A stretch of 38,429 bases of DNA, from the NCBI RefSeq assembly GCF_000243315.1, contig NZ_JH597768.1:109498-147926 (forward strand), in the 5' to 3' direction. The position numbers and the translations under genes were made by a program. Shown in pieces: positions 1 through 33,113 of this stretch. The DNA comes from Metallosphaera yellowstonensis MK1. GTDB taxonomy: Archaea > Thermoproteota > Thermoprotei_A > Sulfolobales > Sulfolobaceae. The stretch's first letter is position 1. Each line of letters opens with the position of its first letter. The notes beneath the pieces were generated by a model. It saw only the letters and a program-made list of their open reading frames with translations. It did not search any database and was not told the origin of the DNA.

Positions 1-1
1 A

Positions 2-493
2 GTGAGCGGAAACCTCTATAACCTAACGTTAGTGGGAGACTCATTCAACATAGTTTATGCCCCGGTCTCTAAGCCTAGCTCTCCCATTGGAGAGGAGGAT
101 CTCTTGATCCTGATAGCCCTTGTAGTCAGCGACTCCGTCTTAGCAGGTCTAGTCATTTACTTATATAGGAGAGGCAGGGTTAAGAGGGTTGAACAACCTC
201 AGAGTGAACCCCGGGTTTCCAACGTAAGCCAGGAGGCTGAAGAGGAGGAAACGGAACTAACCCAGGAGACGCTAAACGACAGAGACATACTTGTACTTGA
301 GGCGTTTAAGCAGGGGGCTAAGACGCTCTCAGATGCGGTTAAGGCTACGGGACTCCCCAAGTCCACCGTGTACAGGAGGATAAAGAAGCTCGTGAGGCTC
401 GGTTATCTTGTGGAGAGGAGAGAAAAAGGTAAGATATGGTACGAGGTCGGAACTCCTCACGGCGAAAAAAGTGAGGATCATACTAATGTGTAG
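2..493 (+). CDS. Membrane-anchored winged-helix transcriptional regulator (5' partial)
   Basis: The reading frame is open at the window edge, so the start is not visible. The first 30 or so residues look extracytoplasmic. One membrane helix follows (residues about 33-54, LLILIALVVSDSVLAGLVIY), then a basic stop-transfer RRGRVKR, an acidic Glu-rich linker (about 70-90) and a C-terminal winged helix-turn-helix (about 92-150) with the recognition-helix pattern ATGLPKSTVYRRIKKL and the wing LVERREKGKIWYEV. This is the architecture of archaeal MarR/IclR-like regulators tethered to the membrane, which sense outside and bind DNA inside. The last 16 bases overlap a copy of the 3' end of the convergent small gene, and the whole wHTH coding end is duplicated downstream. 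The target is unknown; the adjacent divergent small-protein promoters are candidates. Confidence 0.75.
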   Translation: MSGNLYNLTLVGDSFNIVYAPVSKPSSPIGEEDLLILIALVVSDSVLAGLVIYLYRRGRVKRVEQPQSEPRVSNVSQEAEEEETELTQETLNDRDILVLEAFKQGAKTLSDAVKATGLPKSTVYRRIKKLVRLGYLVERREKGKIWYEVGTPHGEKSEDHTNV

Positions 494-702
494 TGGTTGA
501 GGGAGATCACCACCATGTCCACTATCGACTCCCCAAGTCCACCGTGTACAGGAGGATAAAGAAGCTCGTGAGGCTCGGTTATCTTGTGGAGAGGAGAGAA
601 AAAGGTAAGATATGGTACGAGGTCGGAACTCCTCACGGCGAAAAAAGTGAGGATCATACTAATGTGTAGTGGTTGAGGGAGATCACCACCATGTCCACTA
701 TC
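351..702. repeat. Perfect 176-bp tandem duplication
   Basis: Bases 351-526 are repeated without any mismatch I could find as 527-702. The unit holds the last 48 codons of the regulator, including its stop, plus the antisense 3' end of the neighbouring small gene. Copy 1 completes the regulator and copy 2 completes the convergent small membrane protein gene, so both genes remain intact. The second copy of the regulator end (527-669) is an orphan fragment. Perfect identity suggests a very recent event or an assembly artefact. Confidence 0.93.
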
Positions 703-5170: not shown

Positions 5171-5893
5171 ATGATAGCTGTAGCTGGGTTCAAGATAGTC
5201 CCAGACGATACGTTGATAAGGGCAGTCAACGGGAAACTGGAACTTAACGTTCCCCCCAAGATAAGCACTTACGACAAGAACGCCATAGAGGAGGTGGTGA
5301 AGATCAAGGAGAAACTGGGTTGGAGGGCAGTGGGGATAACAGTGGGGAACACTGACAGGAAGAGCGTGAGGGAAGCGTTGTCCATGGGACTGGACGAGGT
5401 GATTGCCGTGAGCTCGGGTTACCTGGACGTTCCTGGCACTGCTCAGGCCATGGCTGAGAACCTCAAGGCAATCTCTCCCAGTCTAGTGGTTTTGGCTGAA
5501 ACCACCACGGACAGCAGTACTTCGGCTCTCCCTCCTTACCTGGCTGAACTCATGGGTTTCAACCTGGTCACCTATGTCAGATCCATGAGGATAGAAGGAG
5601 AAGTCGTGGTAGCCGAGAGGAGCGTAGGTACGGTGGAAGTCGTTAGGGCTCCTCTTCCTGCTGTAATCTCGGTCACTGGAGAGATAAATACACCCAGAAC
5701 CCCATCTGTGAAACAGATAATGGAGTCAGCTAAGAAGCCGGTGAAGCAGGTTAACTTCTCCGCTCCTCTGATGGCGGAGCTGAAGGAAGTTGTGCCGTTC
5801 ACAGTGAACAGGAAGAGAGTCGTAATAGAGAAGCCCCTGGAAGAGGCCGTGGACCAACTAATCAATTACCTCAAGGGTGAGGGTATACTATGA
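5171..5893 (+). CDS. etfB: Electron transfer flavoprotein, beta subunit (FixA/EtfB)
   Basis: 240 aa, normal EtfB length. The N-terminus MIAVAGFKIVPDD matches the family start (KxVPD). The nucleotide-binding region appears as AETTTDSSTSALPPYLAELM (about residues 115-135), corresponding to the usual D-x-D-T-G-QVGP-LAE stretch that binds AMP, or FAD in bifurcating forms. The C-terminal helix packs on EtfA. It forms the soluble heterodimer that accepts electrons from acyl-CoA and other flavin dehydrogenases. It is the first gene of a tight four-gene operon: its stop overlaps the etfA ATG by 4 bp. The fixABCX order suggests the quinone-linked, possibly bifurcating branch. Confidence 0.9.
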   Translation: MIAVAGFKIVPDDTLIRAVNGKLELNVPPKISTYDKNAIEEVVKIKEKLGWRAVGITVGNTDRKSVREALSMGLDEVIAVSSGYLDVPGTAQAMAENLKAISPSLVVLAETTTDSSTSALPPYLAELMGFNLVTYVRSMRIEGEVVVAERSVGTVEVVRAPLPAVISVTGEINTPRTPSVKQIMESAKKPVKQVNFSAPLMAELKEVVPFTVNRKRVVIEKPLEEAVDQLINYLKGEGIL

Positions 5894-6756
5894 AGGTACT
5901 AGTAGTGTCGGAGGACCCCGAATTCTTCAGGTCAGCGTCCTGGGTGTCCCAACAGTTACCTGCAGACCAAATTGAGGGTATACACTTCAGCGAGGTCAAC
6001 TACGTTGACGTACTTTACCTAGTCAGACCTGATGGGTACTGGGAGGAGTCCATAGCCAACGTGGTTAAGAGCATCTCGCCCGATGTAGTCGTGGCGGGGA
6101 GCACTAGGAGAGACAAGACGGTCGCGTACTCCATGGCCGGGAAGTTGAGGGCTTCAGTTGCAGGAGACGTGACAGAGGCGGTGTTAAAGGAAGGGAAACT
6201 GAGGGTCAAGAGGGTAGTGTATAGTGGAGCTGGAGTGGCTACCCTAGACCTGAGCCTACCGGCGGTCATCACGGTTCAGAAGAACACGATGGAGCCGGCT
6301 AGGAGGAAGGGAGAGGTCAGGAAACTCCAATTGGATCCTTCTAAGGTTACCCTGGTGGAGAGGAGAGAGGTGTCCCAGACTGTGGCCTTGGACAAGGCTA
6401 AGACGATCGTGTCTGTGGGGAGAGGCATAGGCTCCAAGGAAAACATTAAATATGCCGAGGAACTAGCCAGGGCTTTGAACGCTGCCCTGGGCGGAAGTAG
6501 GCCGGTCACCGCTGAACTGGGTTGGTTACCTGAGGACAGACAGATAGGCCTCTCCGGGAACAAGGTCAGACCTCAACTCTACATAGCCCTGGGGATATCC
6601 GGACAACCACAGCACCTAGCTGGGATCAGGGATTCTCGCTTGATAGTAGCGGTAAATAAGGACAAGAACGCCCCCATAGTCGAGAACGCCGACTACACGG
6701 TGATAGCTGACGCAGTGGAGTTCTGTAAGATGATGGTGAGGAGGCTGACCAAATGA
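5890..6756 (+). CDS. etfA: Electron transfer flavoprotein, alpha subunit (FixB/EtfA)
   Basis: 288 aa, slightly short for EtfA (about 310-330). The N-terminal half is an EtfA/B Rossmann-like domain with SPDVVVAGSTRRDK. The C-terminal FAD-binding domain carries VSVGRGIGSKENI (about 174-187), AELGWLPEDRQIGLSGN (about 208-224) and LYIALGISGQPQHLAGI with VAVNKDKNAPI, the signature that wraps the FAD. It overlaps etfB by 4 bp and its stop overlaps the flavoprotein ATG by 4 bp, implying translational coupling. It delivers electrons to the FixC-like flavoprotein encoded next. Confidence 0.92.
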   Translation: MKVLVVSEDPEFFRSASWVSQQLPADQIEGIHFSEVNYVDVLYLVRPDGYWEESIANVVKSISPDVVVAGSTRRDKTVAYSMAGKLRASVAGDVTEAVLKEGKLRVKRVVYSGAGVATLDLSLPAVITVQKNTMEPARRKGEVRKLQLDPSKVTLVERREVSQTVALDKAKTIVSVGRGIGSKENIKYAEELARALNAALGGSRPVTAELGWLPEDRQIGLSGNKVRPQLYIALGISGQPQHLAGIRDSRLIVAVNKDKNAPIVENADYTVIADAVEFCKMMVRRLTK

Positions 6757-7958
6757 GCTTTGACGCAGATGTCATAGTGGTTGGTGGAGGGCTAGCAGGG
6801 CTCTCGGCTTCCCTCACTGCTGTGAGGGAGGGACTCTCCGTACTGGTCCTCGAGAGAGGTGAGTTCTCCGGGGCCAAGAACGTGAGCGGAGGGAGGATGT
6901 ACGTTCATGCCCTGAGACAGCTAGTGGACATCTCAGAGGCCCCTCTGGAGAGACCCATAACCAAGGAGACCTACCTGATCAAGTGCAGTAACAGGGCTAT
7001 ATCATTCTCCTTCAGTGATCCTGAGAGTAGAAACAGTTACTCCGTTCTCAGGGCCAAGTTCGACCCATGGTTGGCCAAGAAGGCTGAGGAGGAAGGGGTG
7101 ATAATATCCTATAACACCCTGGTTCTAGGGGCTGAGAGAGAGGATGGAGGCATGACCGTGAGGACCAACAGGGGGGACCTCAGAGCCCCCCTGGTGATAG
7201 AGGCTGACGGGGTCACTGCCGGGATCTCAAGGAGCCTGGGACTCAGGAAACTGGAACCTCACTCCCTAATGTTGGGAGTCAAGGAGGTGGTGAAACTGGA
7301 GGGGCCTCCCGAGGAGGGGGAGGCTAGGGTACTCGTGGGGTTCGTGGGCGAGCTGTTGGGAGGTGCGTTCATGTACACCAACGAGGATACACTGTCGTTG
7401 GGTGCTACAGTGAAGATAAACTCGTTACAGGAGGGCAACAAAATGGCGAGAGACCTTGTGGAGGAAATCAGGGAGTCACTGGGCGTGACCGGGGAGGTGT
7501 TGGAGTACTCAGCCCACCTCATTCCGTATTACGGATATGATAAGCTCCCTCCCCTTCACGCACCCAACCTCTTGGTAACTGGGGATGCTGCAGGTCTACT
7601 CATAAATGACGGGTTTGTGATAAGAGGTATGGATCTGGCCATAGGATCTGGAATGATAGCAGGTAAGGCTGCCAAGAGGATCCTGTCAGAGGGTAAGCCT
7701 CAGGACACCTCAGTGTATGAGAGGATGTTGAGGGAATCATTCGTACTTAAGGACATGTACACCGCCAGGAGAGCGTTCACGCTAATGAACGAGGAGAGAC
7801 TGTTCAGGCGTTACCCAGAGTTATTGTGCGATGTGTTGGCCAGGATGTTCAAAGTGGAAGGCGAACGGAAGAGGTTGCTTGAGGTAGTCCAGGAGGAGGC
7901 GTCCAAGAGAGGACTGACACTTACCAAGTTGGTGAGAGACCTAGTCAAGGTGATGTGA
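6753..7958 (+). CDS. fixC: FixC-like ETF:quinone oxidoreductase flavoprotein
   Basis: 401 aa. The N-terminal FAD dinucleotide fold is VIVVGGGLAGLSASL with the terminal Glu in LVLERGEFSGAKNVSGG (residues about 5-45); the second FAD motif is LLVTGDAAGLLINDGF (about 273-288). Length and motifs match FixC and the flavoprotein half of ETF-QO, the membrane-peripheral dehydrogenase that passes ETF electrons to quinone (caldariella-type quinone in this order). The iron-sulfur part, fused in eukaryotic ETF-QO, is encoded separately by the next gene. GTGATGTGA at its end leaves no gap before the GTG start of fixX. Confidence 0.9.
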   Translation: MSFDADVIVVGGGLAGLSASLTAVREGLSVLVLERGEFSGAKNVSGGRMYVHALRQLVDISEAPLERPITKETYLIKCSNRAISFSFSDPESRNSYSVLRAKFDPWLAKKAEEEGVIISYNTLVLGAEREDGGMTVRTNRGDLRAPLVIEADGVTAGISRSLGLRKLEPHSLMLGVKEVVKLEGPPEEGEARVLVGFVGELLGGAFMYTNEDTLSLGATVKINSLQEGNKMARDLVEEIRESLGVTGEVLEYSAHLIPYYGYDKLPPLHAPNLLVTGDAAGLLINDGFVIRGMDLAIGSGMIAGKAAKRILSEGKPQDTSVYERMLRESFVLKDMYTARRAFTLMNEERLFRRYPELLCDVLARMFKVEGERKRLLEVVQEEASKRGLTLTKLVRDLVKVM

Positions 7959-10569: not shown

Positions 10570-11184
10570 TTAGTTGTCTGAGCCGTATCCAGAGTCAGAA
10601 GATCCAGAATTGTTATCTCCCTGACTTGAGTTGGTAGAATGATCAGGGCTGTTGTCAGACGCAGAAGTTACTCCGCTTCTGGTGTTGGAGTTCATGTCAG
10701 GGCTGTTGTCCCCCTGATACGGCTTGACTATAATGAGCGGTTTGTCTTGGACACCGTTTCCTTCAGGATTTTGAGATACTTGGTAAGACACCTTTATCTG
10801 AACCTGATAAGTTCCATTGCTCAAGTAAGTGTGAACATCGTTCTGTCCTTCGGTTAAGTAGAGGGTTTTATTACCCACTATTATAGTTACGTTGAAGGAA
10901 GAGAACACCGATTCTATGGGATTCTCATTTAATTCGAAGGTGTAGTTACCTGACGTATTGACTGTCATAGTAGTGTTGGCCGAGGCTGTTCCCAACTGAC
11001 CAGGAGTCAAATTACCTAGATTCAGATTCGCGGTGTTCAATATCACTTGGGGTTGTGCAGAGCTCTGACTTGTCACTTGACTTATCGTATAGGTTATAGT
11101 AGCCAAGGTCGAAAAATTGGCTGCACCGGCTGCAGCTCCAGTGGCCACTACGGCCGCCAGGAGTATTAGGGCCATCTTATTCAT
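10570..11184 (-). CDS. Secreted Ser/Asn-rich protein of unknown function
   Basis: Start chosen at 11184 because GGTGA lies just upstream (ggtgaaaaaATG) and the next residues form a signal peptide (MNKMALILLAAVVATGAAAG); the frame extends 19 codons further. The mature part has a predicted beta-sandwich-like region (about 25-150), with repeated N-x-S/T sequons and the segment LGNLTPGQLGTASANTTM. It ends in a low-complexity tail (about 150-203) of Ser, Asp, Asn and Gly with NSPD repeats and no anchor. No Cys. Its divergent neighbour is a cytochrome b/Rieske fusion, so it may be a cell-surface partner, but that is only context. Confidence 0.7.
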   Translation of the reverse strand: MNKMALILLAAVVATGAAAGAANFSTLATITYTISQVTSQSSAQPQVILNTANLNLGNLTPGQLGTASANTTMTVNTSGNYTFELNENPIESVFSSFNVTIIVGNKTLYLTEGQNDVHTYLSNGTYQVQIKVSYQVSQNPEGNGVQDKPLIIVKPYQGDNSPDMNSNTRSGVTSASDNSPDHSTNSSQGDNNSGSSDSGYGSDN

Positions 11185-11615
11185 TTTTTCACCCTGATCT
11201 CCTCTAGCCTCTTGTGTCTTATTAGGCACACACAAGTTCACAATTCCGGTCTACAGGGGGGCGTTTCAATCGAGTAATGAAATTCAGGAATCGCCAGACT
11301 TTCCTCAATTTTCACCTTGAAATAGGGAATCTAACAACCGCTTTGAAATAATTGAAGGAACGCACTCACGGGTGATGAGGACTTCCCGTTCAACTGTGAA
11401 ATCACGGTCAACAATTATTGGAATCGGTCTAGATTGCAGGGCGGTACTCAAGGGAAAATCCCACAATTGACGTCACGGTATACTTAATTTACGCTGTTTT
11501 GAGGAATGTTTCACCCTGAATGAAACGAGTGAAAATTGAAATTATACTTCAGATATTAAAAAATATACGTAAAAAGTATTTTAATAAAAGAAATACTCAA
11601 CGTTTCACAGGTTTC
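11185..11615. other. Divergent intergenic region
   Basis: About 430 bp between the secreted protein and the Rieske fusion. It holds a possible degenerate copy of the 64-bp element at 11285-11344 (similar GACTTTC and GGAATCTAACAACCGCT blocks) and a short inverted repeat GTTTCA/TGAAAC (11508-11526). No gene is supported. Confidence 0.4.
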
Positions 11616-11623
11616 TTATATAG
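11616..11623 (+). promoter_or_regulatory. TATA box of the cytochrome b/Rieske fusion gene
   Basis: TTATATAG lies about 26 bp before the ATG at 11646. This places transcription start at the start codon and argues against the upstream in-frame ATG at 11520. Confidence 0.55.
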
Positions 11624-11645
11624 AATCCCTCCCCAAGAGCTGGAC

Positions 11646-12863
11646 ATGAACCTTCAACAGATCTCCCTAGACGTGCTCTTCCTCACGACAGCGGCTGTAT
11701 TCGTTCATTACTTGACCAGAGGACGTCATTACCCCGAGCCAAAGGTCGGTGGAAGACACTTTGTTTTTTACACGAGATGGCAGAGACTCTTCCACTGGAT
11801 TACCTTCCTCCTCATGTCGATCCTCGCTCTCACAGGGTTCACCATGTTGCTCACCGGGAACTACTCGACACTGAACTTCCACAATTTACTAGGACTTTTA
11901 CTTTCTATCCCGTTCGTCGGACACGTGATCTTCGACTTCATGAGGCGTAGCGGGAGAGCTGAGATGACCATTAGAGTGAGGGAGCTCATGGAGTTGATTC
12001 GTCCTCACGGCGTTAAAGGTAAGATTGGAGGAAAGTATCATCCCTTGAAGAAGATGCTCCATCTGGGTTTTTCGCTTTCCTTTTTGGGCTTGGCGCTCAC
12101 AGGGGTCCCCATGTTTCTTTTCCCTACTGGGCTCGGACCCGTCGCGTTCACCTACGTGCTGGACCTTCACGTATTGTCAGCCTTAATGATGGTTGGGTTG
12201 GGGATAGGCCACATTTACATGGCTTTCCTACCCTCCAATAAGCCTCTCCTTATGGCCGTAACGGTAGGACTGATAGATGAGGAGTATTTGAAAGCTCACT
12301 ATGAGACGGCGAGTTTAAATTTGAGGCCCGTTGGGACGCGTAAGATCACGACTAACCTGAGCCGGAGAATTTTTCTGGAGTCTACTGTTCTGGCGTCTGT
12401 CCTAGCCCTGATGGCTGGGATATTAGCTGGGTCAATCAGTCAACGTAACGGAGGGAGTCCCAGTAGTTCCCAGTTACAAGCTCAGGGCGAGATAGGTCCG
12501 ATAGCTAACGTGAGTCAGTTGAAACCCAACACTGCGAAGATGTTCTCGTTTCCCAACGGCGCACCTGGGATAGTGGTAGAGCTACCCAACACGCAGCTCA
12601 AGGCGTTTAGCGCGGTTTGCACGCATCAAGGCTGTACCGTAGGCTACATACCTGAACAACAGATCATCTACTGTCCTTGTCACGGTGCTGAGTTTTCACC
12701 TCAGGACGGATCGGTGATCGCGGGTCCTGCACCGGCTCCCCTGACTGAGTACCCCATAGTGGTGGATCAGAATACAGGAAACGTTTACATCCAGCTGGGA
12801 TCTAACTCATCGCCTCCTCCTAGCAGAGGAGGGGGAGACGACGGGGGTGGGGGAGACGACTGA
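11646..12863 (+). CDS. Cytochrome b (FdhI/b561-like) fused through a Tat-type helix to a Rieske domain
   Basis: 405 aa from ATG 11646. After a first hydrophobic helix, four helices carry candidate heme b histidines: RLFHWITF, PFVGHVIFD, KMLHLGFSLS and LDLHVLSALMM with GIGHIYM, resembling the diheme cytochrome subunit of formate dehydrogenases. A cytosolic loop then leads to LSRRIFLESTVLASVLALMA (about 275-295), a twin-arginine motif plus hydrophobic helix as in Rieske Tat signals. The outer C-terminal domain has the cluster motifs CTHQGCTVGY and CPCHGAEF and the Pro loop GPAPAPLTEYP. It ends in Gly/Asp-rich low complexity. It should link a quinone-side cytochrome to an external [2Fe-2S] centre in one chain. 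The partner is unknown; no separate cytochrome b or oxidase gene is adjacent. Confidence 0.85.
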   Translation: MNLQQISLDVLFLTTAAVFVHYLTRGRHYPEPKVGGRHFVFYTRWQRLFHWITFLLMSILALTGFTMLLTGNYSTLNFHNLLGLLLSIPFVGHVIFDFMRRSGRAEMTIRVRELMELIRPHGVKGKIGGKYHPLKKMLHLGFSLSFLGLALTGVPMFLFPTGLGPVAFTYVLDLHVLSALMMVGLGIGHIYMAFLPSNKPLLMAVTVGLIDEEYLKAHYETASLNLRPVGTRKITTNLSRRIFLESTVLASVLALMAGILAGSISQRNGGSPSSSQLQAQGEIGPIANVSQLKPNTAKMFSFPNGAPGIVVELPNTQLKAFSAVCTHQGCTVGYIPEQQIIYCPCHGAEFSPQDGSVIAGPAPAPLTEYPIVVDQNTGNVYIQLGSNSSPPPSRGGGDDGGGGDD

Positions 12864-24177: not shown

Positions 24178-26586
24178 TCACGGGTGATATATGGGCAACT
24201 GTAGATATAGCATGGTGAAGACTACTACCCACACCGCATCCACGAAGTGCCAATAATAGGAGGCTGCGGTGGAGAGTTGGTATGGTGTGGTGATCCTGGT
24301 TCTCAGCAGTGTTATTGACCATAATACTAACCCCATGATGACGTGGAACGCGTGCAACGATACTATAGTGAAGAAGAAGGCCGTAAATATGTCCTCCTGA
24401 GGGGAAAACTTCACTATGTGGGTGAACTCATACACTTGACCCATTAGGAAGGAGAACCCCATGAGAGCAGTTAGGGCCCCAAGAGCCTTGAACAGTCTCA
24501 TCTTCCCCTTGAGGAAACTGTGGTAGGCCAGATGGGCAGGCAAAGAGCTGGACAACAATATCACGGTCATTATCAAGGGCAGAGGGTACCAGTCAACACT
24601 TAATTTAGGTAGAGATGCTACAGTAGGAGTCTCGTTAATATCGTATATGTAACCCCCTATGAAACTACCGAACAGGAAGATCTCAGCGATAATGAAGAAG
24701 AGCACTGGAGTCTTAGCCTTACTAGATATTTCTACCCCACCTTCTTGGATTACTGGTTCTCCCACTGCACCAGTAGCTCCTGTCGCACCAGTGGAGCTGG
24801 ACGCCTGGACAAATTTCGCAGAACCCAGACCTCCGAGGCCTCCCCCGAGGTGCGGTACTGTCTTGAAATAGTCATTATATAGCCATACGACTCCCACGCC
24901 TATGAAGACCAGCACCATGAGAGCACCAGGTATCGTTATTCCAGCCAAGATAAACATGAAGCCCAGGGGAGGGAAAGACATCAGTAACCCAAGTAACGCA
25001 GGGTAGTACGTGCCGTGCCTATGTTCTGGTATAGAGCCGTCCATCTCCCTGCCGAATGTTAAGGGGAGAGCTATGGGCTTTATGGTGAAGTCCGGTATAC
25101 CTATAAGCTGTTCCGAGTTCCAAGGATCCATAGTCCTAACTGGAGGACCTCTCAGCCAAGCGTAGAGGAGTGTGCTTACTAGTAACAGTAAGCCTATCCC
25201 CTCTACAGCCCCTCCAATCGTCACCAAATTCTGGAAAGGCTGGTAAATAGGAGACGGGACCTCTGCGTATCTCCTCGGCATCCCCAGAACACCGTCAATA
25301 CTCATCCCGGTGGCGACCACGAAGGCACCAACTACGATCATCATCATGGAACTCCTGGCTAGTTCCTGGTCGAACCATTTCCCTGTAAAGTAGGGGAAGT
25401 AGTATACGAGCCCGCAAAGGAGGCCGACTAGTATAGCGAAGACCATGTAGTGGAAGTGACCTACGACCAAATAGGTTCCATTAAACGCTAGGTCAACGGG
25501 TATCAGTGGGAAAAATACGCCTGTTATCCCTCCAACTAGGAAGAGGGAGATGAAACCTATCATGCCTATGGTGAGAGCTGAGAACCTAACTTTCCCACCG
25601 TAGAACGTTATGGTCCAGTTCACAACCTTGACGCCTGAGGGGATCGCAATCGCCATAGTGGTAGCAGCAGCTATCTCTCTGGCCACGTCGCTATCTATGG
25701 CAGTGAACATGTGATGCATCCACACGCCTAAGGTTGAAAGAAATGCTATGGCCATGGATGAGAGAGCCAACGCCTTGTATCCGTATATTTGCCTACCCAC
25801 AGCCCTGGGAAGTATCTCTCCCACGAGTCCCATGGCTGGCAGGATCAGGATGTAGACCTCAGGATGACCGAAGAACCAGAACACGTTCTGCCAAAGGAGG
25901 GGATTTCCCCCAAGGGCGGCGTTGAAGAAGGGCAGGTTCCACATCCTCTCGAGGTAAGCCATGGCAAGTGCGGCAGTGAGTGGTGGAAGAGCCACTATGA
26001 GGAGGATAGACGTGGCGAAGAAGGACCAAGTGAAGAGCGACATCTTAAAGAACGGTACTTTCCTCAGCCTCAGGATAGTCATAAGGAAGTTTATCCCTGT
26101 GAGTGTGGATGAGACACCAGCTATCATCAGGGCTATTTCTACCAGCGTCACTCCGAACCCCCCGTTCACCTGCAGGTCAGTACTTAACGGTGCGTACATG
26201 TACCAGCCAGTGTTTATGGGACCGAAGAAAGGTGCAGCTATGCTCATGGCTACTGCTGGCACGAGGATCCAGAAAGACAACGCGTTGATCTTAGGCCAGT
26301 ACAAATCGTTGGCCCCTATCATCCTAGGGACCAGATAGTTGGCAAATCCTGTGGAGATGGGCATTACCATAAAGAATATCATGAATATTCCGTGAAGGCT
26401 TACCGCATTATAGTAGCCCACTGCCCCTATGTCGTTGAAGGTCAGCTGGGATCTTATCATCCCTGCGTAACCAGATCCTACCAAAAAGCCCACTAGTCCT
26501 AGTACGATATACATTATTCCTATGTCGTGTGCACTGGTAGTAGTGAAGGCAATCTTAAGTATCTCCTTAATTTTTCTCCAGCTCAT
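24178..26586 (-). CDS. soxM: Heme-copper oxidase subunit I fused to subunit III (SoxM)
   Basis: 802 aa. Subunit I part (1 to about 560) has twelve helices with the low-spin heme His in VSLHGIFMIFFM, the CuB His and cross-linked Tyr in GHPEVYILILP (about 238-248), the CuB pair MHHMF, and the heme ligands in VGHFHYMVF. A flexible linker (GGGLGGLGSAKF, then STGATGATGAVGE) leads to a five-helix subunit III (about 630-802) with LFGSFIGGYIY, SLHAFHVIMGL and YWHFVDAVWVVVF. It reduces oxygen to water and pumps protons, fed by sulfocyanin. A minus-strand TATA (26630-26637) lies about 45 bp upstream. It is transcribed divergently from soxEFGHI, with an IS607 element in between. Confidence 0.95.
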   Translation of the reverse strand: MSWRKIKEILKIAFTTTSAHDIGIMYIVLGLVGFLVGSGYAGMIRSQLTFNDIGAVGYYNAVSLHGIFMIFFMVMPISTGFANYLVPRMIGANDLYWPKINALSFWILVPAVAMSIAAPFFGPINTGWYMYAPLSTDLQVNGGFGVTLVEIALMIAGVSSTLTGINFLMTILRLRKVPFFKMSLFTWSFFATSILLIVALPPLTAALAMAYLERMWNLPFFNAALGGNPLLWQNVFWFFGHPEVYILILPAMGLVGEILPRAVGRQIYGYKALALSSMAIAFLSTLGVWMHHMFTAIDSDVAREIAAATTMAIAIPSGVKVVNWTITFYGGKVRFSALTIGMIGFISLFLVGGITGVFFPLIPVDLAFNGTYLVVGHFHYMVFAILVGLLCGLVYYFPYFTGKWFDQELARSSMMMIVVGAFVVATGMSIDGVLGMPRRYAEVPSPIYQPFQNLVTIGGAVEGIGLLLLVSTLLYAWLRGPPVRTMDPWNSEQLIGIPDFTIKPIALPLTFGREMDGSIPEHRHGTYYPALLGLLMSFPPLGFMFILAGITIPGALMVLVFIGVGVVWLYNDYFKTVPHLGGGLGGLGSAKFVQASSSTGATGATGAVGEPVIQEGGVEISSKAKTPVLFFIIAEIFLFGSFIGGYIYDINETPTVASLPKLSVDWYPLPLIMTVILLSSSLPAHLAYHSFLKGKMRLFKALGALTALMGFSFLMGQVYEFTHIVKFSPQEDIFTAFFFTIVSLHAFHVIMGLVLWSITLLRTRITTPYQLSTAASYYWHFVDAVWVVVFTMLYLQLPIYHP

Positions 26587-27250
26587 TAATACATCATGAT
26601 AGATTGACTTAAACAGGAATTAAGCCTTTTTTATATATCTTTCAATTATTAGAAGTTTTAATCATTAAAACAACTATAGATTTTTCTTTATACTCAGATG
26701 TGAAGAAGAAAAACTTTATATATTTTAAATTATTTCTATCATTACTTAATTCAATCTATTTAAGATGCTAATCATTTTTTATCTAATAAATATGGCGAGA
26801 ACAGATTCACACCGCCTCAATTGACCGTCCTTATGATGTATATTAGGGAATTAAATGAGGGGAATTAAATCTGAGCCTAAGAGTTAATTTAGAAACAACG
26901 AAATCTAACCGTCACCGCTTAACAGAGGGTGACTTGTAACCTGTGGGCTGGAAATCTCTTAGGGAAGTTGTCTTCTGCATCAAATGAATCACAAATCAAA
27001 TTACTTGATCCCCCATAGAAGCTGGGAGATGTTGAGAAACTGATATAGAGAATTGTATTGCGAAATTTCCCTCCTTAACTCCCTGTTTAGTTAATGCTTA
27101 TTTTGGCCTCCATCTATTGGGAAAAATTCATTTTGAGAGTAACTAAGGAGGGTCAGAGACCGCTTAGGGTGAGTCGCAAGTGAGGTGGCAGTTCTTGTCA
27201 CGCAGTCTGAACTAACCTATCCATAAACAGTCTCATCCACCTTTCGTCAG
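26587..27250. other. soxM upstream region
   Basis: AT-rich near the gene, with the soxM TATA and a second TATA-like CTTTATATATT on the plus strand near 26714. No gene is supported. Arms CCCTCCTTA (27069-27077) and TAAGGAGGG (27144-27152) form a loose inverted repeat. The IS607-type element begins around 27250. Confidence 0.4.
26630..26637 (-). promoter_or_regulatory. soxM: TATA box of soxM
   Basis: TATATAAA on the minus strand predicts a start site near 26607, giving a leader of about 20 nt before the soxM ATG. Confidence 0.5.
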
Positions 27251-27282
27251 TACTTAGTGTGAGTTCCAGATACCGTTTGTCC

Positions 27283-28509
27283 CTACACTTTCATTTCAAT
27301 CATTTTATGTTCATTCATGATCGAGTGTAGGGACTTAGCCCTCAACCACCCACTTAAGGTAGGTGGGTCATGGGACTCCTTCGAGCCCAACGGCACGGGG
27401 CTCACATCTCCAGCCCTCCTCGCTAAGTTGTACAGTGCAACCACGTCCCTATGCCACCTCTCCTTCCCCTTCCCACAAACACCAACCCTTGGGGCATCGC
27501 CCCCATCGGGTCGGTAAACGATCTTCGTCCCGTGGACTGGGCAAACAGTGGAAGTGTGAGACGGATTAACTAAGAGTACGGGGACACCGAACTCCCTAGC
27601 CTTCTCTATGATGGCGTTCTTCATTGAGGAAAATGCAGATCTATAAATCCTCAACCTAAGCTGTTTATCCTTCACGTCCTTCATCATATGCTCCGGAGTT
27701 CTCCCCGGCAAGTCCTCCAAAACTATGGCACTCCTACTTTCAAAAGCCTCTTTGACGATCAGCTTGGCTAATTTCCTCCTAACGTCTACTTTCTTATCCC
27801 TCTCCCTCAGCCTCTTTAACTTCCTCCTCACTTCCCTATCCTTAGTTGGCTTACCAGTAGTTGTCAACTTCCTCCTATACTCATAGCCCAGAGTAATCTT
27901 AGTGTTAGTCTCAAGCAATAAGGGTTTACTGTTGATGAGCACCGAGACCGAATTCTCATTTAGGTCGACGGGGATGAAACCCTTAGGCTCATAAGGTTTA
28001 ACATCCCTCTTAAAAATGACGTAGAACTCTACAACGTTCCCCTTCATCAGCCTAAACCTGGCCTCACTGGCAATCGACCAGCCCTTGTTATAATATCTCC
28101 AGAAGATCTTAGGGAAGGTTGGTGAAATGAGAATCCTACTCCTCTTTGTGGAAATTGAAATCGTGTCGAGACTGAACTTCCACAGATGATCATCTAGATG
28201 CACAGTGACCTTCCTCACAGACGGTTTCTCAGTGTAGGCCCTACCCCTCCTCTTCAACTTCTCAAAACTGTCCAACCTCTCGCTTGCGTCCTCACAGGCT
28301 GTGTAAATGAAATGGGATGGTAAGTCCTTGTACTTCTCCCTCTCAGTCTTGTAAATCCCAGCTTTAATCCTGGTGAAGGAGGTAGTCTCGTTTGACAGCC
28401 CATAATTTATTGCGTCCTCTAGAACCTCTCTGTACTCCCCCTCAACTTCCTTAAGTGCTGAGTAAGTTTTATGGTCAACCCTAACCCTTAACTTCACTGT
28501 CCTCTCCAC
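27283..28509 (-). CDS. tnpB: TnpB, RNA-guided nuclease of the IS607-type element
   Basis: 408 aa, full length. The RuvC-like acids are visible: Asp in FIPVDLNENSVSV (about 186), Glu in AIVLEDLPGRT (about 268) and the final Asp in WHRDVVALYNLA (about 363). The zinc-finger region is atypical: CPVHG replaces CPxCG, and only VCGKG follows, so one or two ligands are missing or substituted. TnpB uses a right-end RNA (omega RNA) to cut DNA and helps the element persist. It overlaps the tnpA remnant by 29 bp. The 3' end is repeated, decayed, at 12966-13400 and 22236-22385. Confidence 0.9.
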   Translation of the reverse strand: MERTVKLRVRVDHKTYSALKEVEGEYREVLEDAINYGLSNETTSFTRIKAGIYKTEREKYKDLPSHFIYTACEDASERLDSFEKLKRRGRAYTEKPSVRKVTVHLDDHLWKFSLDTISISTKRSRILISPTFPKIFWRYYNKGWSIASEARFRLMKGNVVEFYVIFKRDVKPYEPKGFIPVDLNENSVSVLINSKPLLLETNTKITLGYEYRRKLTTTGKPTKDREVRRKLKRLRERDKKVDVRRKLAKLIVKEAFESRSAIVLEDLPGRTPEHMMKDVKDKQLRLRIYRSAFSSMKNAIIEKAREFGVPVLLVNPSHTSTVCPVHGTKIVYRPDGGDAPRVGVCGKGKERWHRDVVALYNLARRAGDVSPVPLGSKESHDPPTLSGWLRAKSLHSIMNEHKMIEMKV

Positions 28510-29120
28510 TCAACTCACCTATCAACTTTTTTACACCTTGAACTAGGAGTGTTTTCTTATGACTCCTCATTCCGTAAATTTTACCAGCGAATGAGGTAAT
28601 GATGGAAATTAAGTCCTCCACAAGTTCCTGTGCGTCATCTTTGGGCTCCTCACCGAAAACTACTTCAATCTTAACTCCCACGGTTGAGAAGAACTCCTCA
28701 ATGTACTCGAAACCGAACCTTGTTAACCTATCTTTGTAGGTTATTAATACGACGTCTACACTCCTTCCCTCAACAAGTTTGAATAACTTGAGCAATCCTT
28801 TCCTTCCTGTGTTCAACCCGCTAGCTACATCTTTCAGTTTCAACCACCTTGTAACCCTTTGCCGTTGCGTAATTTGTTAGGTAGTTCATTTGTCTCTCCA
28901 AGTCCTCTTTTTGATCGGTAGAGGACACCCTTGCATAAATTACAGCCCTCGTCTCTTCCCTCCTCTCTAAGTACTTCTTAATCTCGCTGTAAGGTATCCT
29001 ATACTTCCCTCCTTCAGTCGTTACTGCCCTTATTTTCCCTTCTCTAATCCACCGTAGGAGTGTTGAGTATGAAATGCTGAGCAGTTGGCAGGCCTCCTTG
29101 GGTCTCAGTAGTCTCTCCAC
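28481..29120 (-). pseudogene. tnpA: IS607 serine recombinase (TnpA), split by a frameshift
   Basis: The N-terminal part (29120-28821) has a MerR-like DNA-binding segment, LLRPKEACQLLSISYSTLLR with WIREGKIRA, and the resolvase start AVIYARVSSTDQKEDLERQM containing the catalytic Ser. After GYKVVE the frame shifts by +1 at about 28845, and the rest (LKDVASGLNTGRKGLLKL, ITYKDRLTRFGFEY) continues in another phase to 28481. Joined, it is a normal-length IS607 transposase. A single-base insertion explains it best; programmed frameshifting is possible but lacks an obvious slippery run. Confidence 0.85.
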
Positions 29121-29240
29121 AAAATTGGTTGATAATAAACAAATATAAAAAGATTTCTATTAATGTGAGAAAGGATTCAGCCCTGAGGAATTCTCCTATT
29201 ACTTCCGTTCTACCAATCCCATGCGAGTATCCCAAAAATG

Positions 29241-29248
29241 TTTATAAA
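29241..29248 (+). promoter_or_regulatory. soxE: TATA box of soxE
   Basis: TTTATAAA, about 24-33 bp before the ATG candidates at 29268 and 29277. It is only about 100 bp from the IS607 end, so the native promoter core appears to have survived the insertion. Confidence 0.55.
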
Positions 29249-29267
29249 CGCTTTAACGGCATTTAAC

Positions 29268-29867
29268 ATGATTATAATGAAGAAAGGAGTCTCGTCCACC
29301 TTCACTTATGTGATAGCCTTTATAGTTGCGGTCGTGGTACTCTCAGCCTCAATTATCTCCATCATGCAATTTCACTCCCTCTCTGCCCCCACTAACACTA
29401 CCCAAACTACGGGCTCAGGTCCGTCTAAGGTCACATTGCCCGTGATAGCGTCAAATAAGACGGTGCAGATAACACTGGTAGCTCTCTCTTCTGCATCTAC
29501 CTTTAACATAAACGGCACCTCTTTCGGCCAGATGGTCATCTACATACCTGCAGGCTACAGCATAGAGGTGACCTTCATTAATCAGGAATCCCTACAACAC
29601 AACCTAGTGCTTGTAATGAACGATACGCCTACTCCCAACGCTGCAGATCTGGCTTCTGATGGTAAGTTATTGATGTTCGTCGGTACTTCATCTTCGGCGT
29701 ATACCATCCAGGGTCTCTCCTCAGGTCAGTCAGCCACTGAAGTCTACGGACCCCTTCAAGTCGGAACCTACTGGCTAGCGTGCGGTATCTCTGGGCACGC
29801 TGAGTCTGGAATGTGGGTAGACTTAGTGGTCTCTAATAACGTGACAACTCCATACGTCGTGGGCTAG
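29268..29867 (+). CDS. soxE: Sulfocyanin (SoxE), membrane-anchored blue copper protein
   Basis: 199 aa from ATG 29268 (ATG 29277 is equally possible; the TATA lies between the two optimal spacings). An N-terminal anchor (VSSTFTYVIAFIVAVVVLSA) precedes a Ser/Thr-rich linker and a cupredoxin domain. Copper ligands: His in LQHNLVLV (about 115), then Cys, His and Met in WLACGISGHAESGMW. Sulfocyanin takes the place of cytochrome c, carrying electrons from the Rieske/cytochrome b part (SoxFG) to SoxMH on the outside of the membrane. It has its own promoter and is followed by T-rich sequence, so its level may be set separately from soxFGHI. Confidence 0.93.
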   Translation: MIIMKKGVSSTFTYVIAFIVAVVVLSASIISIMQFHSLSAPTNTTQTTGSGPSKVTLPVIASNKTVQITLVALSSASTFNINGTSFGQMVIYIPAGYSIEVTFINQESLQHNLVLVMNDTPTPNAADLASDGKLLMFVGTSSSAYTIQGLSSGQSATEVYGPLQVGTYWLACGISGHAESGMWVDLVVSNNVTTPYVVG

Positions 29868-29925
29868 TTTATAATGATAAACTTTATTTTATTAAAAACA
29901 TTTTGTTCCTAGTTTTTGAATAGAA
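29868..29925 (+). terminator. T-rich termination region after soxE
   Basis: Several T runs (TTTATTTT, TTTTG, GTTTTTG) follow the soxE stop, before the soxF TATA box. They probably end the soxE transcript. Confidence 0.45.
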
Positions 29926-29927
29926 CG

Positions 29928-29935
29928 TATAAATA
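29928..29935 (+). promoter_or_regulatory. soxF: TATA box of the soxFGHI operon
   Basis: TATAAATA is centred about 27 bp before the GTG at 29959 and indicates a leaderless mRNA starting with GTG. Confidence 0.6.
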
Positions 29936-29958
29936 CCGTTAAACGCTTATGTCACTCA

Positions 29959-30711
29959 GTGAGCGTCAAGTTGCACAGGAGAGACTTCCTCAGGCTCACC
30001 TTAGTCTTAGGTGGGGCCGTAGCAGTTTCACCGTTGGTCACCCCCCTCTTGGATTACATGGGATACTATTACGGAGAACTGAAGGCTATCTCGCCCAAGT
30101 ACCTCGTAGCTAACAACACGCAGGGCCTGGAAGGGTTTCCCAAATATAGGGTCGCTAATATAAAACAACTGCAGTCCAGCAGTTGTCCGGTGTACTTCTT
30201 TGCCTACCCCTTAGTTGACGAGCCGTGCTTCCTCGTCGACTTCAGCAAGCTAAATGGAATGAACAACGTGGAGTTCAAGAACCCCTACGCCAATCAATTC
30301 CGGATAAACACTAACTTTAAGGACATAGTTGGGGTAGGACCCAAGAACTCCATTTGTGCCTTTTCGGCAGTTTGTGTTCACCTTGGATGTCAACTTCCTG
30401 CACAAGCTCTAGTCCCGAGCCCTAATGATCCTGGACTGAACCCCTCGACCTCCGTGCTTCACTGTCCCTGTCACGGCTCCATGTATCAGCTAGATCAAGG
30501 GGGAGTCGTAGTAGGGGGGCCAGCTCCCCGGCCGCTCCCTATGGTGCTCTTGGAATATGATGAAACCACTGGGGACATATACGCTGTAGGTACTAACGCA
30601 CCTTATTTCTCAGAGGCAGTTCCAAGGAGGAGACCAGTGGACAACCTCATCTATGATCCGAGGTATAGCTACTCCGTCCCTAGTAATCCAGCTTGCGTGA
30701 GGGTGAGCTAA
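29959..30711 (+). CDS. soxF: Rieske iron-sulfur protein (SoxF)
   Basis: 250 aa, GTG start supported by the TATA spacing. The N-terminus holds a twin-arginine signal, [20 protein letters not shown], so the folded protein is exported by Tat and stays anchored by that helix. Cluster motifs are CVHLGC (about 139-144) and CPCHGS (about 171-176), followed by the Pro loop GGPAPRPLP. It takes electrons from quinol bound at cytochrome b (SoxG) and passes them to sulfocyanin. The last bases provide the GGTGAG motif for soxG, whose ATG overlaps the soxF stop. Confidence 0.95.
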
Positions 30712-32231
30712 TGGAGGAGAGGGAGGAGAGCTGGTTAGATAAGGTGCTATTATGGCTCGACGAAAGAACTGGAATTTACGGTCACACGCTGAGACCTGCT
30801 CCAAGATACGCCTACAGGCTAGATTTCTGGCTCGGTTCCTTTGTGCTGGCGGCGTTCGCATTTGAGGTGGTTACCGGCATGCTGGTAGCATTGTACTATA
30901 TACCGGCAGATCCTTACGCCTCAACAACGTTCCTCATATCCCAGGTTCCCTTAGGGGCCCTACTGTTCAGCCTGCACAGCTGGGGTGCCTATGCCATGAT
31001 TTTTCTCCTCTTGATTCATATGACGAGGAACTTCGTGGTTGGGGCCTACAGAAAACCCAGGGAAGTAATGTGGATGGTGGGAACTCTACTGGCTGCCCTC
31101 ACGCTTAGTGAGGCATACCTAGGCTATTCCCTACCTTACAACCTCATTTCGTGGACTGCAACAACCACTGGGCTGAACCTGTTCACCTACATGCCCCTGG
31201 GGTTGAGCAACCTCATAGCTGCCTTCACCTTGCTCCCGCAGTTACCTGGAATAGCTAGTGGAGTGGATCCATTAGTGGACAGATTCTTCATTTTTCACTG
31301 GATAGTAGGGGCCCTCATAGGAGCAGTCCTTGGGCTACACCTTTACATTTTTGAAAAGCACGGCATAACTCCCCCATTGAGCAAGGAGAGGGATGTCTCA
31401 GAGCTCATTGATGACCACAAGGATAGGCTAGAGCGAGATCCAAATTGGAAGTTGCAGCCCCTAACCAGAACTTTCGGGATAATCCTAGTGACCTTCCTTA
31501 TGACGTTCGGTGCCATATTTCTTATAGCTTCGGCGTTCCCGTTCCAGATAGCTATGGACGGGGGACAGATCAAGTACCTGATGCCTGAGTATAATCCCGC
31601 TCTGGCAGCACAGACCCCACCGATTCCGGATTGGTACTTCCTCTTCATCTACTTCTTCTACAAGTCAGTGTCGCCATCTAATGCGTCATTGATATTCTTA
31701 GCCTGGGGAGCTGTAACCCTTTTGTTCCCATTCATAGACCAGTACATCTTCAGACATAGGTCGTCTCATCCAGTCATGAGGCCTGCAGCCATAGCTCTAG
31801 GTACGGGGTTCATCATCTCGTTCATAGTCAACAGCGTTTGGGCATACCTCACCCCAGGTAGAGATATAGGACCCATAGGTGTTGAAGTGGACGCAGTAAT
31901 CTTTGTGATGTCCTTTGTAGCACTATTCCCCACGTTGAGATGGCTCCAAAGGAGGAGCGAGGGGAAGACTGACTCTTTTGACTTAGGGAAGAGACTGGGC
32001 CTAGCGTATAGTGTATCCCAACAAACCTTAACTCTCCCTAAACCTCTCACACTGGGTTTGGACTTGAGTGTGATCCTAACTGGTGGCTTGATGGTATACA
32101 TCTCCATGAAAATGCTAACACTTACCAACCTCCTCCTAGACCAGTTTGAGTTGGGCTTTTTGGCTGGTATCAATATGATCCTATTTGCCTACCTAGTACT
32201 AATTTACACGTTGAGGGGTGCAGAGCAATGA
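30711..32231 (+). CDS. soxG: Cytochrome b of the SoxM supercomplex (SoxG)
   Basis: 506 aa from ATG 30711, 5 nt after GGTGAG; the upstream in-frame TTG at 30693 is less likely. Heme histidines sit in helix II (LHSWGAYAMIF and LLIHMTRN) and helix IV (FHWIVGAL and LGLHLYIFEKHG). The quinol-site motif is PDWYFLF, the PEWY equivalent. About ten to twelve helices with a long C-terminal extension, as in other archaeal cytochromes b. It binds two a- or b-type hemes and oxidises caldariella-type quinol together with SoxF. The stop overlaps the soxH ATG by 4 bp. Confidence 0.94.
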   Translation: MEEREESWLDKVLLWLDERTGIYGHTLRPAPRYAYRLDFWLGSFVLAAFAFEVVTGMLVALYYIPADPYASTTFLISQVPLGALLFSLHSWGAYAMIFLLLIHMTRNFVVGAYRKPREVMWMVGTLLAALTLSEAYLGYSLPYNLISWTATTTGLNLFTYMPLGLSNLIAAFTLLPQLPGIASGVDPLVDRFFIFHWIVGALIGAVLGLHLYIFEKHGITPPLSKERDVSELIDDHKDRLERDPNWKLQPLTRTFGIILVTFLMTFGAIFLIASAFPFQIAMDGGQIKYLMPEYNPALAAQTPPIPDWYFLFIYFFYKSVSPSNASLIFLAWGAVTLLFPFIDQYIFRHRSSHPVMRPAAIALGTGFIISFIVNSVWAYLTPGRDIGPIGVEVDAVIFVMSFVALFPTLRWLQRRSEGKTDSFDLGKRLGLAYSVSQQTLTLPKPLTLGLDLSVILTGGLMVYISMKMLTLTNLLLDQFELGFLAGINMILFAYLVLIYTLRGAEQ

Positions 32232-32671
32232 AAGCCGAGAGAGCTGCTGAGATATCAACCATTGTGTTCGCCATTGCAATTTTGGTCTTCTTAGGGGCCC
32301 TTTCGTTCCAGTACCTGGGATACATAACTCACGGCTACTATATCTCTTCCAACGAGAAACCTATCCCCATTAAGGTCATTGCGAAACAGTACGTGTGGGA
32401 GTTCATATACCCTAACGGGACTGTATCCTACGATAAGGTAGTCATACAGGCGGGGAAGCCTTACGTGTTTGAATTGACCTCCGCTGACGTCATACATGCT
32501 TTCTACATAGTTCAACTGGGACTCAAGATGCAAGCCATTCCTGGTTATACCTACGATCTATATGTCCTCGTGAACCAACCTGGGGTATATAACATTTGGT
32601 GTGCCGAATTTTGCGGTCCAGGGCACTACACGATGAAGGGGGAGCTCATAGTAGTCAACGCAACTGGGTGA
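32228..32671 (+). CDS. soxH: Oxidase subunit II with CuA site (SoxH)
   Basis: 147 aa. One N-terminal helix (STIVFAIAILVFLGALSF), then a cupredoxin domain with a full CuA site: His90 (DVIHAF), Cys125, Cys129, His133 and Met136 in CAEFCGPGHYTM. It receives electrons from sulfocyanin and passes them to heme in SoxM. Although soxM is elsewhere in the cluster, this is its only subunit II candidate here. Co-transcribed with soxFG and soxI. Confidence 0.95.
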   Translation: MKAERAAEISTIVFAIAILVFLGALSFQYLGYITHGYYISSNEKPIPIKVIAKQYVWEFIYPNGTVSYDKVVIQAGKPYVFELTSADVIHAFYIVQLGLKMQAIPGYTYDLYVLVNQPGVYNIWCAEFCGPGHYTMKGELIVVNATG

Positions 32672-32675
32672 TTCC

Positions 32676-33113
32676 ATGAAACTCAGACTAATAGATTACG
32701 TGGCCTGGGTCGTGACCATTGCCGTAATGTGGGTATTATTCCTATGGGTTGGCGATTTCGGATTACTCCCTTACCTAGCTCAATCTCCCGTTTCACAATA
32801 CGTAGAGAACTTGTGGAGGATAACCTACGTAAGCGCCTCTGGGGTGTTCGGGGTGTTTATGGGATCTCTCATATTCTTGTCGCTGAGGTTCAGATACGTT
32901 GAGGAAACTGCTCAGAGGCAGGCGACTAGGACTGACTACTCCAAGATCGTGATTCCAATACTTCTGGTGAGCGGTGTCAGCCTAGCGTACGCCATGTTCC
33001 AGTACACATCTAACCTCATGGAGTTTCAGTTCGACTTTGGAATACTAGCCTCACTGATGATCCTCCTCTTCGCTGCATTCATCTTTGTAGTCTATAAGCA
33101 GTATTACGAGTGA
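32676..33113 (+). CDS. soxI: Small membrane subunit of the SoxM complex (SoxI)
   Basis: 145 aa with three helices: WVVTIAVMWVLFLWVGDFG, a middle one around VFGVFMGSLIFLSL, and two close C-terminal segments (ISLAYAMF region and ILASLMILLFAAFIFVV). It lies 4 bp after soxH and overlaps the next gene by 4 bp. The name follows cluster position in Sulfolobus acidocaldarius; the biochemical role is not known. An assembly or stabilising subunit is likely. Confidence 0.7.
   Translation: MKLRLIDYVAWVVTIAVMWVLFLWVGDFGLLPYLAQSPVSQYVENLWRITYVSASGVFGVFMGSLIFLSLRFRYVEETAQRQATRTDYSKIVIPILLVSGVSLAYAMFQYTSNLMEFQFDFGILASLMILLFAAFIFVVYKQYYE

Follow-up and report, generated by a model that had tools for sequence, protein, structure and literature searches.

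The window analysed here, a stretch of 38,429 nucleotides from Metallosphaera yellowstonensis MK1, raises the question whether one gene really encodes a heme b membrane domain, an internal Tat signal and a Rieske domain in a single chain, as the first-pass annotation proposed, and, if so, what such a chain may do. Our answer is that the chain is not an artefact, and that it is, with a probability of roughly 0.6, a quinone-linked transmembrane electron carrier which would be assembled first by Sec and then by Tat. Read from its N terminus, which is predicted to lie outside, the chain begins with one helix and continues with a four-helix di-heme b domain of the FdhI/FdnI type. Then come an internal twin-arginine (RR) motif and helix six, and the chain closes with the Rieske domain and, behind it, an acidic tail. 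Its parts are as follows.

11616..11622, + strand: TATA-like element TTATATA, about 30 nucleotides 5' of the ATG at 11646
11646..12863, + strand: cytochrome b–internal Tat motif–Rieske fusion, 405 amino acids (open reading frame, Pfam, orthologue alignment)
11652..11729, + strand: extra N-terminal helix, residues 3-28, N-out (AF2 model, charges)
11760..12224, + strand: FdhI/FdnI-type four-helix di-heme b domain, residues 39-193 (PF01292, FdnI match, model helices)
11793..11795, + strand: H50, proposed inner heme ligand (FdnI H18 by motif), invariant in 4/4
11880..11882, + strand: H79, proposed outer heme ligand (FdnI H57 by motif), invariant in 4/4
11922..11924, + strand: H93, extra His near the inner side, invariant in 4/4
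12060..12062, + strand: H139, extra His near the inner side, invariant in 4/4
12168..12170, + strand: H175, proposed outer heme ligand (aligns with FdnI H155 by HMMER), invariant
12210..12212, + strand: H189, proposed inner heme ligand (aligns with FdnI H169 by HMMER), invariant
12360..12380, + strand: twin-arginine motif SRRIFLE, residues 239-245; R240, R241 and F243 invariant in 4/4
12375..12431, + strand: Tat-type sixth helix, about residues 244-262, with an Arg soon after it (model, charges)
12492..12791, + strand: Rieske domain, about residues 283-382, with box II CPCHGAEF (Pfam, AF2 pLDDT, Foldseek)
12618..12626, + strand: cluster ligands C325 and H327 (CTH), invariant
12672..12683, + strand: cluster ligands C343 and H346 (CPCH), invariant
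12801..12860, + strand: Gly/Ser/Asp-rich C-terminal tail ending DD (orthologue alignment, tail survey)

The open reading frame extends further upstream and covers 11520-12863 (+ strand, 447 amino acids). The start at 11520 was considered and rejected: its first 42 codons are AT-rich, are absent from the orthologues and contain the TATA-like element. The start at 11646 is the better one, because the four orthologous proteins align from this Met onward and the TATA-like element precedes its ATG. In all four orthologous genes a CTTATA element lies about 30 nucleotides upstream of the ATG, and its position is kept within 1 nucleotide. When this element (CTTATA, or TTATATA in the window) is taken to be a TATA box, as we assume, its spacing would be as for a leaderless transcript that begins at the ATG at 11646.

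Both halves of the window chain are recognised by Pfam, the first as Ni_hydr_CYTB (PF01292; E 4.9e-13, 49.7 bits, cut-off 30.1) and the second as Rieske (PF00355; E 7.1e-13, 48.7 bits, cut-off 20.3), so that the earlier claim of a cytochrome b and a Rieske domain in one chain at 11646-12863 holds. Over the four orthologues the scores range from 42.4 to 49.7 bits against the gathering cut-off of 30.1 for the former domain, and from 45.6 to 49.6 bits against 20.3 for the latter, with invariant Cys and His ligands. When the full-length protein was used as query against 60 related genomes, full-length orthologues in one open reading frame were found in three of the five congeneric genomes (G002, G003 and G005), 43-48% identical to the window protein along the whole chain; in the other two, G001 and G004, this query found no fusion. 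Separate reading frames in all orthologues had been looked for as the mark of a frameshift, and what is found is fused single open frames in three other species, from which follows that chance and a frameshift are excluded and that a joining of two genes by faulty assembly or gene calling is rejected as well.

The fusion is rare, as the first-pass annotation had supposed. A profile built from the four orthologues (A1) finds it in four of the 31 genomes of the family, all of one genus. Among 398 genomes drawn evenly from the phylum, with at most four candidates scored per genome, 56 match A1 at E up to 1e-9, and both domains are matched only in the four fusions; among the 31 family and 398 phylum genomes there is no further match that spans both. 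Split ancestors of the gene were sought by eye in 12 neighbourhoods of winged-helix genes in other Sulfolobaceae (a winged-helix gene also accompanies the fusion, see below), and neither a fusion nor a split pair was seen, with the exception of one SoxM-type cluster that has its own Rieske protein and bc-type cytochrome b. The best Thermoproteota Rieske proteins after the fusions have zero to two helices per Rieske gene in the 16 loci read, at least nine of which have a separate bc-type cytochrome b gene nearby. These genes were considered as precursors and rejected, because their helices are few and cytochrome b is often a separate gene. In these searches, the cytochrome b–Rieske combination was not found elsewhere, and in the open-licence literature no paper was found to describe, by title or abstract, a cytochrome b–Rieske or a DoxD–Rieske fusion.

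Consider now the cytochrome half. A profile of this domain alone (A3) has E. coli FdnI as its top solved relative (1kqf_C, E 2.3e-7), which agrees with the FdhI-type heme b domain first recognised by eye; one other distinct solved sequence, a [NiFe]-hydrogenase cytochrome b, comes within E 1. Six His (H50, H79, H93, H139, H175 and H189) are invariant across the four orthologues, and four of them are proposed as heme ligands on the numbering and ligand roles that we assume for FdnI (H18, H57, H155 and H169). With FdnI and the formate dehydrogenase gamma subunits (PF01292, TIGR01583) the fusion shares the four-helix b domain and equivalents of the four heme His and, in the alignment with FdnI, a GKYxxxxK loop and a similar end after the fourth helix. 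It differs from FdnI by the extra N-terminal helix and by carrying a Rieske domain in the same chain, where FdnI has an iron-sulfur subunit as a separate protein. It differs from FdnI systems also in its low TIGR01583 score (22.3-33.0 bits in all four proteins, far under the cut-off of 115.85) and in its surroundings, since neither catalytic nor iron-sulfur formate dehydrogenase subunit genes were recognised by eye in the ORF lists of the fusion loci. The domain probably works like a formate dehydrogenase gamma subunit, yet is not one by the TIGR01583 test. This low score counts against the carrier reading, as does the His or Asp that the fusion has at the position of FdnI N110, which we take to be the quinone site.

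Profile A3 matches 17 of the 398 phylum genomes, i.e., the four fusions and 13 others. Eleven loci from the latter were read: eight encode stand-alone FdhI-type proteins of 212-256 amino acids, with ferredoxin-type, FdhE-like or Mo-oxidoreductase genes, mostly the first two (names by eye), as neighbours; two encode a different fusion of 477-478 amino acids, and one is partial. In that different archaeal fusion (L174:574-2007 and L176:405-1835) an unassigned, extracytoplasmic-looking N-terminal domain, perhaps a heme-b domain like that of ethylbenzene dehydrogenase gamma, precedes the FdhI-type cytochrome b. In 23 bacterial genomes with near relatives of the Rieske half (23 of the 80 loci described below), A3 gives one weak match, in a frame of 247 amino acids. 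As judged by these profile matches, the cytochrome half resembles archaeal gamma subunits of formate dehydrogenases or molybdenum enzymes.

The way in which the chain is predicted to cross the membrane follows from its charges. The inner loops have 5-11 Lys or Arg each and the outer loops between helices have none, in all four proteins, and because these residues are confined to the predicted inner loops, the chain is expected to be N-out, with six helices and with the Rieske domain outside, in line with the first-pass annotation. Structure prediction, which had been suggested as a check, bears this out in part. The AF2 model made with bacterial Rieske rows has six helices (residues 3-28, 39-70, 78-118, 133-158, 165-193 and 235-260), and its Rieske fold is confident, with pLDDT 95-98 for the greater part of the domain. 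The membrane half has pLDDT about 30-88, and this low to middling confidence for the cytochrome part counts against the carrier reading. The model from a single sequence was poor (pLDDT 48.7).

The internal twin-arginine motif (LSRRIFLE) is confirmed: it stands right before the last helix, and in all four proteins the pattern RRxF[LI][EK] precedes this helix and an Arg follows it. A TatC gene is present in the genome. The hydrophobicity of the last helix (Kyte-Doolittle 1.84-2.12; the second scale was a simplified one) is not clearly below that of the other helices, which counts against the carrier reading. Low hydrophobicity of this helix is stressed for release from Sec in the section on dual Sec–Tat proteins of PMC5449189. 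Other features by which that section recognises such proteins are found in the fusion, namely an RR directly before the last helix, a C-terminal cofactor domain, a loop of at least 8 amino acids before the RR (about 45 in the window protein) and a positive charge after the last helix (Arg in 4/4). The same section names actinobacterial Rieske proteins, the heme-b–MoCo family of Sco3746, a polyferredoxin, the YkuE group and a five-helix Kitasatospora Rieske protein, which may, as a guess, belong to the DoxD–Rieske kind; it mentions no cytochrome b–Rieske protein.

By analogy, Sec-then-Tat assembly of the fusion would fit the dual-targeted proteins of that section (PMC5449189). The Sco3746 family described there shares with the fusion the heme-b helices, the internal RR, the last helix with a positive charge after it, and an exported cofactor domain, but this domain is MoCo, not Rieske, and the chain has five helices and is N-in, whereas the fusion has six and is N-out. 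Actinobacterial QcrA (three helices, Sec then Tat) has the internal Tat motif before its last helix and its Rieske domain outside, as here, but has no heme domain and is a subunit of a bc complex.

The Rieske half may have had a different ancestry. Its best solved match by Foldseek is a Chlorobaculum Rieske domain (8hn2_A, E 2.5e-11), and the ligands C325, H327, C343 and H346 are invariant in alignment A1. Box II reads CPCHGAEF in all four fusions and CPCHGSMY in the SoxM-cluster Rieske protein of the same window. Both hydrogen-bond donors of bc1 Rieske proteins, Ser and Tyr, are thus replaced in 4/4 fusions by Ala and Phe; the Cys pair at the disulphide position is kept. In the portion of PMC3758308 used here, hydrogen bonds from this Ser and Tyr, and a disulphide, raise the potential of bc1-type Rieske proteins. 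The loss of Ser and Tyr suggests a potential lower than that of the bc1 type and nearer to the quinone pool; the argument is weak because, in the same portion, an F-to-Y change was without effect in one AioB (PMC3758308). From a lower potential near the quinone pool it would follow that electron transfer in either direction is conceivable. Ala and Phe are common in the bacterial group, since among the 46 bacterial rows with the motif box II ends in AxF in 20, in SxF in 14 and in GxF in five.

These rows come from genome contigs. A first scan of the contigs gave no relative, and a second gave 80 loci, kept out of 550, which were picked by patterns drawn from the Rieske boxes and in which the match covers the Rieske half. 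By tblastn, the best relatives in the contigs are bacterial, chiefly from Chloroflexota and Actinomycetota, with at most 56% identity over 97 residues. No cytochrome b domain was found in the ORFs of the 80 loci at E 1e-3. DoxD (PF04173) and Rieske are joined in one chain, by Pfam, in all nine of the bacterial proteins with clean ends that were scanned, and in most of the bacterial DoxD–Rieske proteins read an RR motif stands before the helix that precedes the Rieske domain. Such DoxD–Tat–Rieske single chains are encoded at L039:8990-10303, L040:9245-10351, L042:1658-2881 and L045:9011-10300, among others; a loose text signature for DoxD/DoxX, which misses some Pfam-confirmed cases, occurs in 21 of 78 loci. 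These bacterial fusions have the same order as the archaeal one (membrane domain, RR motif, one helix, Rieske), and in the bacterial rows box II ends in AxF more often than in any other way, but their membrane part is DoxD, the TQO small subunit, where the archaeal fusion has cytochrome b. Neither the window protein nor its orthologues match DoxD (PF04173).

In a quick tree of 124 Rieske domains over 110 columns, with weak deep forks and with bacterial rows chosen because they are similar to the query, the four fusions group in a single clade (SH-aLRT 97) within a 15-row group that includes 11 bacterial rows (86), and the 18 other Sulfolobales rows fall in a clade of their own (99). The Rieske half resembles the bacterial DoxD–Tat–Rieske fusions more than the recovered Sulfolobales Rieske proteins, and a bacterial origin by transfer is likely. 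As the Rieske half is like that of DoxD fusions and the cytochrome half like archaeal formate dehydrogenase or Mo-enzyme gamma subunits, it appears that the exported Rieske cassette was here fused to another quinone-reactive membrane domain. Scores for named Rieske families are far lower than their cut-offs: 43.8-65.5 bits against 275 for actinobacterial QcrA (NF050121), 49.5-54.7 against 250 for b6f PetC (NF045928), 27.5-33.6 against 582.1 for SoxL2 (TIGR03171) and 38-47 against 95.65 for AioB (TIGR02694). AioB, the arsenite oxidase small subunit, shares the Rieske fold and, in the portion of PMC3758308 used here, Phe at the Tyr position, but has Ser or Thr where the fusion has Ala (PMC3758308), and is a subunit of a Mo enzyme.

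In the proposed mechanism, Sec would insert the first five helices, the Rieske domain would acquire its 2Fe-2S cluster in the cytoplasm, and Tat would then insert the sixth helix and move the folded domain out, where a Ser/Gly linker would let it move. Quinone would exchange electrons with the inner heme (H50/H189), on the cytoplasmic side; the Rieske cluster would do so both with the outer heme (H79/H175) and with some partner in the cell envelope. To transfer electrons between the quinone pool, at the inner heme, and such an envelope partner, at the Rieske domain, is the most likely role, and the compact quinol:acceptor unit of the first-pass annotation is plausible. By analogy with a redox loop, descent from FdhI would slightly favour electron flow from an outer donor to quinone; the surface proteins encoded nearby leave outward transfer conceivable. 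It counts against the carrier reading that the four genomes have no dehydrogenase or acceptor gene in common beside the fusion. Two parts of the surface cluster lie in the window.

2..493, + strand: 3' part of a membrane-anchored winged-helix regulator, with a full copy upstream of the window (C17:108044-108937)
10570..11241, - strand: secreted Asp/Ser/Asn-rich protein ("DrichW", a name coined here) of the surface cluster, with tail GYGSDN

In G002, G003 and G005 the fusion has a signal-anchored protein ("Drich1", also named here) on one side and the membrane-anchored winged-helix gene on the other, and in the first two of these genomes a secreted Asp/Ser-rich protein comes next. In the window genome these genes are arranged differently: immediately upstream of the window are Drich1 and the winged-helix gene, and the secreted protein adjoins the fusion. 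After the full winged-helix copy come two more tandem copies of its 3' part, beside a run of N (window 1-700, L037:18045-20000), from either a local duplication or a fault in the assembly. EtfB, EtfA and FixC-like genes (by eye; window 5171-7958) separate the two halves of the surface cluster here and were not seen in the other three fusion loci. In G021, a genome placed in another genus and consisting of 190 contigs, a winged-helix gene (C32:3280-4173) is 99% identical to that of the window genome, and is probably on a stray contig. In other genera the secreted protein, the winged-helix gene and Drich1 occur together within a few kb in 10 of 12 loci (of the remaining two, one is without Drich1 nearby and one has the winged-helix gene only), and the fusion is absent from all 12. 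The fusion gene would then have joined an older cluster of surface proteins and a membrane regulator. In the six congeneric genomes the fusion, Drich1 and the winged-helix orthologue are jointly present in four and absent in two, which counts as one event, because they form one locus.

The C-terminal tails link the fusion to two of these neighbours. In a survey of 439 ORFs of at least 100 amino acids from the window and 22 stretches of its genome, a mechanical list with spurious frames, five have at least 80% S/G/D/N/T/P in their last 15 residues and five end in DD or DN. Both properties are combined in only three, i.e., the fusion, its secreted neighbour and Drich1 (window 11646-12863, window 10570-11241 and L037:17060-18016), which are mutually unrelated. 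In the orthologous clusters the fusion ends in GDN, NDN or GDD; Drich1 ends in NDN or GDN in G002 and G003 and has no such tail in G005; the secreted protein ends in NDD in G002 and in GDS in G003. The shared tails may be a sign of a common envelope location or partner.

From this neighbourhood arises the alternative that the chain is an outward conduit, in which electrons from inner-side quinol pass over the hemes and the Rieske cluster to surface proteins, pilus-associated structures or minerals such as Fe(III) and sulfur. The surface cluster with its secreted or signal-anchored proteins is there in 4/4 genomes, two of these proteins have tails in common with the fusion, and a pilus-type cluster (an ATPase, a membrane protein and four pilin-like proteins, with a weak UpsA match of 44 bits against a cut-off of 130) adjoins Drich1, the cluster's first gene, in G000, G002 and G003. 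Growth on iron and metal sulfides is described for some Metallosphaera in the part of PMC8280799 used here, and is counted in favour. However, the cluster has no known surface redox carrier, pilus genes were not seen beside it in G005, and it occurs without the fusion in other genera, so we regard an outward conduit as unlikely. Slightly less probable again is its more far-reaching form, a conduit free of cytochrome c between quinone pool and surface, which would pass electrons to or from tail-bearing partners and the pilus, in direct contact with solid iron or sulfur minerals.

The winged-helix gene gives rise to a further alternative, that the fusion is a sensor which reports the state of the quinone pool or of oxygen, and the membrane winged-helix protein controls pilus or adhesion genes in response. 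It would account for the co-location of the two in G002, G003 and G005 and for their joint presence and absence, with Drich1, among the congeners. In the window genome, however, the regulator is about 11 kb away, other genera have the module without the fusion, and two hemes and a Rieske cluster are heavy equipment for a sensor; we hold this reading to be doubtful, lower in rank than either conduit.

A SoxM-type cluster, recognised by eye at window 24178-33871 (fused oxidase I/III, sulfocyanin-like protein, Rieske protein, cytochrome b and subunit II), is also about 11 kb away. An IS607-like recombinase and TnpB-like pair lies at 27283-28843 (by eye), and a similar pair is beside the surface cluster of another genus at L145:12413-14300. 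In G006 (L148:7677-16919) the surface cluster is directly beside a SoxM-type oxidase cluster, as it is more loosely in the window. That the fusion serves as an alternative Rieske subunit of the SoxM-type supercomplex, for which its outside Rieske domain and this distance speak, is very improbable: the cluster has its own Rieske gene (29959-30711) next to cytochrome b, the fusion brings its own heme domain and is without the Ser and Tyr, and it is absent from most genomes that have a SoxM-type Rieske protein.

The single-chain, quinone-linked electron carrier is accordingly the reading we retain, and the arrangement belongs, as a variant, to a wider kind, in which a membrane domain is followed by an internal Tat motif and an exported cofactor domain, because the Rieske half resembles that of the bacterial DoxD–Tat–Rieske fusions. 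The cassette of internal Tat motif, one helix and Rieske domain is thus attached to two unrelated quinone-reactive membrane domains at least, in bacteria to DoxD and in these archaea to an FdhI-type cytochrome b. With its six helices the fusion can serve as an archaeal test case for Sec-then-Tat assembly, and it is a redox unit in a single gene, the direction and partner of which are directly testable. For this heat- and acid-loving archaeon, and for those close relatives that also have the fusion, the common tails point to a surface assembly around it.
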